Assembly (NCBI GenBank): GCA_020051695.1 | Contig: JAGVQM010000041.1 | Span: 62,001 to 126,000, forward strand | Reading direction: 5' to 3' | DNA length: 64,000 bases | Source of the DNA: Candidatus Zixiibacteriota bacterium | Lineage (GTDB): Bacteria; Zixibacteria; MSB-5A5; WJJR01; JAJRUJ01 | Shown here: positions 15,700 through 18,197 of the stretch, in pieces | Layout of the letters: each line of letters starts with the position of its first letter | Position numbering within the stretch: the stretch's first letter is position 1 | Notes under the pieces: generated by a model | Databases searched by the model: none | Told to the model about the DNA's origin: nothing | Seen by the model: only the letters and a program-made list of their open reading frames with translations | Made by a program: the position numbers and the translations under genes

Positions 15700-16740
15700 A
15701 TGATGGCGCAACATCCCATGGAAGCTCAATTCTGGGAACCACGACCCAACGGGGTCACGCTATGCACACTGTGCCCCCATTTGTGCCGCATTCGCTCCGG
15801 TCACTATGGTATTTGCGGGGTGCGGAAAAACGAGCGCGGGAGGTTGTATACGCTGGTGTACGAACAGGCCGCCGCGCTGCACGTTGATCCCATCGAAAAA
15901 AAGCCGCTGTTTCATTTTTACCCTGGCTCGCGTTCAATGTCGGTCGCCACGGTCGGCTGCAATTTTCGCTGCCGGTTCTGCCAGAACTGGGACCTCTCGC
16001 AGGCGCCCAAGGGAAAAGATCGGCAATTCGGCGGCAAAGTCGTTCGCCCGGCGGAGGTCGTGCACATTGGCGAACAATACGAGTGCCGGTCGATCTCGTT
16101 CACGTATTCGGAGCCGACGGTTTTTTATGAATATGCCTACGACACCGCCCGGCTGGCCACGGAGCATAATATGTCCGGCGTGTTTGTCACCAACGGGTAC
16201 ATCACGCCGGGGCCGTTGGAGCATCTCCGGCCGTACCTCGCCGCGTTAAATGTCGATTTGAAGAGCTTTAATCCGGATTATTATAAAAGGACTTTGGGCG
16301 CAAAATTGCAGCCGGTGCTGGATTCGTTGCGAAAAATGAAAGAACTCGGCTTTTGGCTGGAAGTGACCACGCTGGTCGTGCCGACAAAAAATGATTCGGA
16401 TAAAGAACTCACACAAATCGCCGAATTCATCTGCGGGCTGGGACCGGAAATTCCCTGGCATGTCTCCGCGTTCCATCCCGATTACCTGATGACCGACCTG
16501 CCGCGGACGTCCCTGACGACGTTACGGCGGGCACGGCAAATCGGCCTCGACACCGGATTGCGTTATGTCTATACCGGCAACATCCCCGGTGATAACGGTG
16601 AATCGACATATTGCTATCGTTGTGGGGCGCTGGTTATCCGGAGGCTGGGGTTCAGTATTGTCGACAACCGGATCACCAACGGCGCCTGCCCCGAATGCGG
16701 GACAAAGATCGACGGTATCGGCATGGATAACCGGGCCTAG
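15700..16740 (+). CDS. amrS: AmmeMemoRadiSam-type radical SAM protein (AmrS-like)
   Basis: 346 residues of the PFL-activase-like radical SAM group. CTLCPHLC near the N-terminus, the CxxxCxxC cluster site in GCNFRCRFCQNW, and a C-terminal zinc-ribbon-like pair (TYCYRCG, CPECG) match AmrS. In other genomes this protein occurs with Memo (AmrB) and AMMECR1 (AmrA); neither is beside it here. Function of the system is not established. GGGAG precedes ATG 15700 (15703 also possible). Confidence 0.9.
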   Translation: MMAQHPMEAQFWEPRPNGVTLCTLCPHLCRIRSGHYGICGVRKNERGRLYTLVYEQAAALHVDPIEKKPLFHFYPGSRSMSVATVGCNFRCRFCQNWDLSQAPKGKDRQFGGKVVRPAEVVHIGEQYECRSISFTYSEPTVFYEYAYDTARLATEHNMSGVFVTNGYITPGPLEHLRPYLAALNVDLKSFNPDYYKRTLGAKLQPVLDSLRKMKELGFWLEVTTLVVPTKNDSDKELTQIAEFICGLGPEIPWHVSAFHPDYLMTDLPRTSLTTLRRARQIGLDTGLRYVYTGNIPGDNGESTYCYRCGALVIRRLGFSIVDNRITNGACPECGTKIDGIGMDNRA

Positions 16741-16804
16741 GCATTTCCAACCGATACGGCGGCGCCCTGGACCGCCAAATTCTCAGAAAACCACTCGTTT
16801 TTCC

Positions 16805-16833
16805 TTGACTGCTGCCGGCCGGTTTTATATATT
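16805..16833 (+). promoter_or_regulatory. Sigma70-type promoter of a short transcription unit
   Basis: TTGACT (16805-16810), exactly 17 nt, then TATATT (16828-16833). It stands in the 371-bp gap between amrS and rsgA and points at the 19-codon ORF and two terminators below. Confidence 0.65.
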
Positions 16834-16888
16834 TTGACAAGTGCAGGCGCAAAAAAAGCCGGTTTGTACAGAAAGGAGGCGTGTTTGT

Positions 16889-16948
16889 ATGGCAGCTGTG
16901 GCGAATGACATCATCGTACATTCACGCCCTGGAAACGGTCTGCACTAA
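16889..16948 (+). CDS. Short ORF (19 aa) in a promoter-to-terminator unit; leader peptide or part of a small RNA
   Basis: ATG 16889 to TAA 16946-16948 encodes MAAVANDIIVHSRPGNGLH. It is preceded by an unusually strong ribosome site AAAGGAGG (16872-16879), 9 nt from the ATG, and lies 56 bp after a consensus-like promoter. The transcript should end at 17010, giving about 170 nt. No Trp, Leu or His run suggesting amino-acid attenuation is present. Whether the peptide or the RNA is functional cannot be decided from one sequence. A GTG at 16881 in another frame reads through the terminator and is only 1 nt from the ribosome site, so I discount it. Confidence 0.45.
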   Translation: MAAVANDIIVHSRPGNGLH

Positions 16949-16976
16949 AGGGTCACGGTCTTTATATAACACCGTT

Positions 16977-17010
16977 GACGGCCGACCCAAGGGGTGGCCG
17001 TCCTTTTTTT
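16977..17010 (+). terminator. Intrinsic terminator after the 19-aa ORF
   Basis: GACGGCC (16977-16983) pairs with GGCCGTC (16996-17002), with an inner ACCC/GGGT helix and an AAG loop, followed directly by C and seven T. A textbook terminator, 29 bp after the short ORF. Confidence 0.85.
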
Positions 17011-17017
17011 GGGCACC

Positions 17018-17045
17018 GCGGGCGTGAAAAGCGCCCGCTGTTTTT
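17018..17045 (+). terminator. Second (tandem) terminator hairpin
   Basis: GCGGGCG (17018-17024), a 7-nt loop and CGCCCGC (17032-17038) are followed by TGTTTTT. It backs up the terminator just upstream, insulating rsgA (start 17112) from the short unit. Confidence 0.65.
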
Positions 17046-17111
17046 CATATGTGACTGTGCGGCATGGCCGTATCGTCACCAAACGGAAGATCGTGACGAG
17101 GGGATTTTACG

Positions 17112-18197
17112 ATGGTTTTGACGAGTTTGGGCTGGGGGGATTTTTTTGCCTCACACTTTGAGCCATATGCACATGACGGTCTGTTGCCCGCCCGCGTGGC
17201 TCGGGAGCACCGCGAGCGTTATGTCATTTTCGGCGAGCACGGAGAGTTTACCGCAGAAGTTTCGGGCAAACTGTGGCACAATGCACACTCGCGAGCCGAT
17301 TTCCCGGCGGTCGGCGATTGGGCGGTTTTTTCCCCGCGGCCCGAAAATCAGGCGACAATTCATGCCCTGCTGCCCCGGCGCAGCACATTTTCTCGCAAGG
17401 CAGTGCTCTCCGGCGAGGAAACCGATGAACAGGTTCTGGCGGCCAATATCGATACGGTATTCTTAGTCAGCGGCCTGGATCATGATTTTAATCTCCGGCG
17501 CATCGAACGCTATCTCACCATCGCCTGGGACAGCGGCGCGATACCGGTCATAGTGCTGAACAAAATGGATTTGGCTGAGGACCTGGGTTCGCATATCCGG
17601 GATATTGGGGCCATTGCTTTCGGCGCACCGATTCATCCGATCAGCGCCAAAAAAAACGAAGGCATTGAGGCGCTCCACGAATATTTGGTGCCGGGCAAAA
17701 CCGTGGCGTTCCTGGGTTCATCCGGTGTCGGGAAAACAACGTTGATTAACTCACTGGCCGGCGAGGAGCTGGGGAAAGTCCAGGAAGTGCGCGAGGATGA
17801 CAGCCGGGGACGGCATACGACAACCTCACGGGAATTGATGGTGTTGTCCTCGGGGGCGATGGTGATCGATTCCCCCGGGCTGCGCGGTCTGGCGGTCTGG
17901 GGCGATGAGGAATCGTTGACCAGGTCATTTCGCGATATCGCTGAAATCGCCGAAGGATGTCGGTTTGCCGATTGCAAACATGATACCGAACCGGGATGTG
18001 CGGTTCGGGTGGCGCTGGCCGACGGTACTCTGGATGAGGGGCATTTCGGCAATTACTTGAAACTCCAGCGTGAATTGAAATATCTGGCGCGACGGCGCGA
18101 TCGCAATGCCCGGCGCCAGGCCGAACGTCAGTGGGACAAAAAAGTCCGCCAGCATTTTGCGGACGTCAAGGAACTGCGCAAGCGCGGTCTAGCGTGA
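17112..18197 (+). CDS. rsgA: RsgA, ribosome small subunit-dependent GTPase
   Basis: Circularly permuted GTPase for late 30S maturation. The order of motifs is G4 NKMD, G5 SAKK, G1 GSSGVGKT, G3 DSPG, as expected for RsgA/YjeQ. An N-terminal OB-fold occupies about 1-100, and a C-terminal zinc knuckle (CRFADCKHDTEPGC) is followed by a long basic helix rich in Arg. The 361-residue length is normal. GAGGGG lies 9 nt before ATG 17112. Confidence 0.95.
   Translation: MVLTSLGWGDFFASHFEPYAHDGLLPARVAREHRERYVIFGEHGEFTAEVSGKLWHNAHSRADFPAVGDWAVFSPRPENQATIHALLPRRSTFSRKAVLSGEETDEQVLAANIDTVFLVSGLDHDFNLRRIERYLTIAWDSGAIPVIVLNKMDLAEDLGSHIRDIGAIAFGAPIHPISAKKNEGIEALHEYLVPGKTVAFLGSSGVGKTTLINSLAGEELGKVQEVREDDSRGRHTTTSRELMVLSSGAMVIDSPGLRGLAVWGDEESLTRSFRDIAEIAEGCRFADCKHDTEPGCAVRVALADGTLDEGHFGNYLKLQRELKYLARRRDRNARRQAERQWDKKVRQHFADVKELRKRGLA

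Follow-up and report, generated by a model that had tools for sequence, protein, structure and literature searches.

In the 64,000-nt stretch of Zixiibacteriota DNA analysed here (the window), a gap at 16741-17111 separates a radical-SAM gene (15700-16740; called amrS in an earlier, sequence-only reading) from the second rsgA of the source genome. The latter (rsgA2; 17112-18197, forward strand) encodes a long-type ribosome small subunit-dependent GTPase A (TIGR00157, 158.3 bits, cut-off 100; PF03193, 167.1 bits, cut-off 30) and is the presumed regulated gene. All of the elements described below are contained in this gap and lie on the forward strand. A promoter, TTGACT-17-TATATT, occupies 16805-16833 (-35 at 16805-16810, 17-nt spacer, -10 at 16828-16833), followed by a Shine-Dalgarno (SD) sequence that is kept in relatives, AAAGGAGG (16872-16879), and by a leader short open reading frame (sORF) of 19 codons plus stop, MAAVANDIIVHSRPGNGLH (16889-16948; ATG at 16889, TAA at 16946-16948). 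Two hairpins follow: terminator 1 (16977-17010), with an 8-bp stem at 16977-17002 and U7 at 17004-17010, and terminator 2 (17018-17045), of a conserved CCGCGG type, with its stem at 17018-17038 and a U-rich tail, UGUUUUUC. Three segments can pair in alternative ways. Arm A (GGCGUG, 16878-16883) begins in the SD, is extendable to 16892 across the start codon, and is one partner of arm B (UUCACGCCC, 16921-16929), which occupies +33 to +41 in the last half of the sORF; arm C (GGGCGUGAA, 17020-17028), the 5' side of terminator 2, is the alternative partner of B. With a start near 16840 and an end at the U-run of hairpin 1, the predicted RNA is ~170 nt long, and its predicted 5' end, AGUGCAG (16840-16846), is complementary to CUGCACU (16940-16946) at the sORF stop, forming a candidate outer stem. 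The promoter, SD, 19-aa ORF, two U-tailed hairpins and ~170-nt predicted RNA of the sequence-only reading were all present where it had placed them, confirming that the observation is real.

The same reading had judged these signals to be of higher quality than those around neighbouring genes, which is just partly right because promoter- and terminator-like sites, taken singly, are not beyond chance: 15 kb of sequence contained 11 promoter-like sites (9.2 ± 3.0 in shuffles) and 13 terminator-like sites (17.0 ± 3.8 in shuffles), and the 10/12 promoter matches at 16805-16833 were equalled by three other sites in the 15 kb. The combination of SD, sORF, and sORF-complementary terminator, on the other hand, is far beyond chance. 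A composite signature, defined as an SD, an sORF of 15-22 aa, and a terminator with a 5' arm complementary to the sORF, occurred once in the window and four times in 80 named rsgA loci (128 kb and 917 kb, respectively, with both strands counted), overlapping matches to one sORF being merged into a single occurrence. All five are rsgA leaders, and the signature was otherwise absent from a background of about 1 Mb.

Recurrence of the leader with rsgA2

DNA similarity searches of the gap against 38 relatives yielded just short, chance-like matches outside its own genome, so the conservation of the element is invisible to BLAST. The layout nevertheless recurs at rsgA2 orthologues as a TTGAC promoter, about 50 nt, GAAAGGAGG, an sORF, at least one hairpin, a CCGCGG-type terminator, and rsgA2. 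An sORF was present at 29 of the 30 rsgA2 loci of relatives (the start was picked by hand among candidates in each of the 29), and in most of these a TTGAC-type promoter precedes it by 45-62 nt, measured from the end of the -10 to the ATG; at the 30th locus (G063), the element lies ~870 nt upstream of rsgA2 with another gene between. The SD, start, length, and codon-position pattern of the short ORF appear to be kept across relatives, and predicted intrinsic terminators lie between the ORF and the gene, although a U-tailed hairpin like terminator 1 was not found in many relatives.

The 20 sORF-bearing loci with a recognised terminator 2 were aligned (alignment A1), and a covariance model built from them (R1) was run on 132 genomes of the Zixiibacteriota phylum. 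At E<=1e-3, R1 matched 42 of 56 genomes with a long-type rsgA, defined by our own cut as a match of 1e-50 or better, compared with 0 of the 76 other genomes; at this threshold, 14 of the 56 lacked a match. Of the 43 R1 matches, 39 shared contig and strand with rsgA2 and preceded it, three were on a contig other than that of the rsgA2 match (the element of G126 points off the contig end), and one, G113:C1:439861 (E 5e-4), looked chance-like, lying inside another gene. The one other genome examined of the window's family (G001) has neither a long-type rsgA nor the element. Comparison across genomes shows that the architecture and its link to rsgA2 are conserved. When R1 was applied to the 80 named rsgA2 loci of many phyla, eight matches were obtained at E<1e-4 (five Zixiibacteriota, Hydrogenedentota L126, L118, and Phycisphaerales L145).

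These distributions bear on the proposal, made in the sequence-only reading, of a free-standing ~170-nt small RNA acting in trans. While such an RNA would account for the promoter of its own and the two terminators, it is not favoured and we regard it as extremely unlikely, given that the element is tied to rsgA2 across families, that the conserved pairs (see below) join the sORF to the terminator adjoining rsgA2, and that the ORF looks translated.

Several variants of the arrangement were observed. At L126:1705-2511 and L118:471-1268, leader and rsgA2 are separated by a class I methyltransferase gene (PF13649), and a gene with a similar start occupies this place in G063 and G062 (loci L176, L177). 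A second SD-led short ORF is found directly before rsgA2, after terminator 2, in L032, L036, L038, L044, L051, L053, L056, L059, and L165; it may be a second, translational leader. In four Zixiibacteriota genomes of one family (L171-L174), in which the rsgA matched is short-type rsgA1 only, a similar sORF and terminator are followed by a small lysine-rich gene without a known family and then by rsgA1.

Constraint on the leader peptide and its RNA pairings

Removal of near-duplicates reduced the sORFs used for codon analysis from 48 to 39, of which 21 are exactly 19 aa long. The commonest residues at peptide positions 2-5 are T, A, V, and V, giving a shared front of M-T-A-V-V. Information at codon positions 1/2/3 among the 39 sORFs was 0.57/0.34/0.23 bits for codon 2, 1.11/0.45/0.15 bits for codon 3, and 0.63/0.37/0.23 bits for codon 4, and the same fourfold residue was encoded by a different codon in 371 of 533 pairs. 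The middle of the peptide varies freely. Constraint falls on every codon position in codons 13-16, a stretch that overlaps arm B in the alignment. Given these codon-position patterns, selection seems to have acted on the protein at the front of the ORF and on the RNA at its end; comparison shows codons 2-4 to be under what appears to be peptide-level constraint, and the sORF looks translated. The RLR motif is absent from the window's peptide and is not common to the 39 sORFs, occurring in single cases (e.g. L053, L187).

It was also suggested in the sequence-only reading that the locus could be a stand-alone small-peptide gene, in which case the 19-aa product would act in trans, the terminators would end the transcript, and rsgA2 would be a mere neighbour. 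The strong SD and start, the peptide constraint on codons 2-4, and a length kept near 19 aa are in keeping with such a gene, and it is not favoured although the ORF looks translated: the peptide middle is free to vary, codons 13-16 are constrained as RNA, B:C covaries, and the element is found with rsgA2 only (42/56 vs 0/76 genomes). We therefore consider a small-protein gene very improbable.

Comparison shows strong covariation of B:C and weaker covariation of A:B in the aligned sequences. In A1, 91.2% of B:C cells hold a standard pair, and 9 of 10 pairs are changed on both sides, with 31 double-change cells; this level of covariation was reached by none of 500 shuffles, and slid partners pair in 28-50%. 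Complementarity of B to its own C, measured against that between loci by a kinship-blind statistic, was reached by 0 of 20000 permutations for the 20 loci, and likewise by 0 of 20000 for 12 loci outside the model (13, less L118, in which no terminator 2 was found). For A:B, 79.5% of cells are paired, 6 of 7 pairs are changed on both sides, and 1 of 20000 permutations reached the own-locus value (20 loci; kinship-blind), with pairing poor or absent in several loci, while the A:C control gave no signal (2432/20000; 20 loci). The terminator-2 stem is paired in 93.9% of cells and displays no covariation in A1 because it is nearly invariant. Terminator 1 did not covary with the sequence after B (5436/20000 permutations, in a set contaminated with third hairpins), and no alternative partner for it was found. 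The refuting condition named in the sequence-only reading, a lack of conservation of both ORF and RNA structure in relatives, was checked by covariation and by codon pattern, and the element withstood it on both counts.

A search of Rfam 15 with the region returned no gathering-score match; the highest-scoring family, ncS16 (16 bits vs 48), and ncr1241 (14.6 bits) were rejected as its RNA family, being far below gathering scores, and no gathering-score match accounted for the leader in 20 other rsgA2 loci. The rsgA2 leader is a covarying RNA element absent from Rfam 15. A single gene preceded by a terminator and alternative structures is also what would be expected of a metabolite- or protein-binding riboswitch, or of an autoregulatory leader (e.g. 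RsgA2 acting on its own leader), with the sORF incidental. This we consider very unlikely: conservation falls on the SD and start of the sORF, on its codons 2-4, and on arms B and C, an unpaired conserved core was not seen, and no Rfam family matched.

Proposed attenuation mechanism and related systems

Taken together, rsgA2 synteny, the covarying pairing between sORF and terminator, and peptide-level constraint on the ORF support the remaining proposal of the sequence-only reading, that of a leader regulating rsgA by read-through, and we propose that the region is probably an attenuation leader that senses ribosomes and acts in cis on rsgA2. That it is conserved suggests a use in bacteria for turning rsgA2 on at times of faltering translation. 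RNA polymerase would start near 16840, and the 19-codon sORF would be translated during leader synthesis. If ribosomes run through the sORF, C would be left free, terminator 2 would fold, and rsgA2 would be off. If no ribosome loads, A would pair with B, hiding the SD and start codon; C would again be free, terminator 2 would form, and rsgA2 would be off. A ribosome held near the sORF start, however, would cover A and leave B free to pair with C, whereupon terminator 2 could not form and rsgA2 would be transcribed. The order of synthesis (B, then C, then the rest of terminator 2) may matter. B:C overlaps the terminator-2 stem as an alternative pairing that excludes the terminator, and we infer that it is the antiterminator; early stalling on the sORF would be the 'on' state, and the signal is presumably impaired translation or 30S function, not a small molecule. 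Several observations count against an attenuator of this kind, among them the poor or missing A:B pairing at some loci, the lack of an R1 match in 14 of the 56 rsgA2 genomes, and the absence of both gene and element from G001. Terminator 1, with its U7, precedes C, and B:C cannot remove it. Folding energies in the window favour the off state (-80.3 kcal/mol vs -72.6 kcal/mol with B:C forced), and the minimum-energy fold keeps terminator 2 even without the first 15 nt of the sORF.

The closest known case to the rsgA2 leader, and a precedent for it, is the hflXr (lmo0762)/rli80 attenuator of Listeria monocytogenes, for which a 14-aa leader ORF, an alternative terminator/antiterminator, an RLR arrest motif, and induction by antibiotics are described (PMC6310831). 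Both have a short leader ORF, an alternative terminator and antiterminator (as proposed for rsgA2), and a downstream paralogue of a ribosome-associated GTPase. They differ in that the target here is an RsgA paralogue and the sORFs share M-T-A-V-V and have no common RLR, and in that antibiotic induction was demonstrated in Listeria (PMC6310831), whereas the rsgA2 leader is described from sequence comparison. The uORFC-6-1 motif before hflX in Bacillales likewise combines a covarying RNA with a conserved uORF, encoding an RLR peptide motif, before a ribosome GTPase gene (PMC8632094). Gene and peptide motif are different, however, and the RNA structure of uORFC-6-1 lies wholly downstream of the start codon (PMC8632094), whereas arm A of the rsgA2 leader overlaps the SD. 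The gene downstream of the present leader is of the rsgA family and not of the hflX family to which the targets of hflXr/rli80 and uORFC-6-1 belong. A search of open-access papers (subscription papers were mostly outside it) turned up no report of a leader, sORF, or attenuator of rsgA, and a word search of the main texts of PMC2965389 and PMC8632094 revealed no mention of an rsgA leader.

Leaders before rsgA2 in other phyla

Upstream of rsgA2, automatic picking gave an SD-led sORF at 41 of 45 loci in Cyanobacteria (MTELLAVRV.., MSEFIATHLHTRR..) and at 18 of 23 in Bacillota, the picks being doubtful in some (e.g. L105, L111, L159). After removal of near-duplicates (41 to 29 cyanobacterial, 18 to 17 Bacillota), complementarity between sORF and downstream leader was higher within than between loci, with 1 and 0 of 10000 permutations for Cyanobacteria and Bacillota, respectively. 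It extends up to 16 bp (L131) and beats dinucleotide shuffles at p<=0.05 in 27 of 67 loci. For some of the cyanobacterial and Bacillota sORFs, the SD region of rsgA itself is a possible partner. In a Listeria locus (L191, 1268-1460), the sORF MAIVKMENLIINTGVFYL precedes rsgA2 and ends in GGGGGUAUU.., which is complementary, by eye, to AAUGCUCCC; the latter has the SD of rsgA as a possible alternative partner, in an ermC-like layout.

Translation attenuators of the ermC type combine a leader peptide with alternative pairing. They are mentioned in PMC6310831, and resemble the present leaders in both respects; pairing of this kind, to the rsgA SD region, is possible for the rsgA2 leaders of Listeria and some cyanobacteria. 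They differ from the leader in the window, where the target arm lies within an intrinsic terminator and not at the rsgA2 SD. A leader with the opposite or another logic, in which a ribosome over the sORF end is the 'on' signal or control is mainly on rsgA2 translation, would be in line with the Listeria layout, with an sORF end that, in some cyanobacteria and Paenibacillaceae, is complementary to rsgA's own SD region, with the second SD-led sORF directly before rsgA2 in several relatives, and with a terminator 1 that B:C does not remove. We consider it unlikely, as a ribosome over B would prevent B:C, the pair within terminator 2 that covaries most strongly in the phylum.

RsgA is a late 30S assembly checkpoint. 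If the attenuation leader proposed for the window is taken together with similar leaders across Zixiibacteriota, Cyanobacteria, and Bacillota and at single loci of Hydrogenedentota and Phycisphaerales, a tentative reading, which we consider possible but doubtful, is that RsgA-dedicated leader-peptide attenuators across phyla sense faltering initiation or 30S function and induce RsgA2 as a ribosome-protection or 30S-repair GTPase, a counterpart of HflXr. Many bacteria keep a second, long-type rsgA, which would be a candidate inducible ribosome-stress factor if the leader reads ribosome behaviour; its role in ribosome stress could then be tested directly with reporters and translation inhibitors. 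A precedent for an inducible RsgA copy, one of two, is found in Streptomyces coelicolor, where the RsgA/EngC paralogue SCO6149 is named among the genes that are activated by WblC/WhiB7 and follow tetracycline, and SCO5211 is not (PMC7157823). Control in S. coelicolor differs in being exerted by a transcription factor (PMC7157823).

All 154 plasmid RsgA records were <60% identical. On one Lysinibacillus plasmid (L193), a long-type rsgA adjoins the fosM fosfomycin resistance gene; the 76 nt preceding this rsgA contained no evident leader, and a link to resistance is therefore not claimed. In an Anaerosolibacter genome, two copies of the Clostridiales-2 RNA (RF02937; L140:2180-2260 and L140:4322-4403) flank or overlap the rsgA2 leader region.
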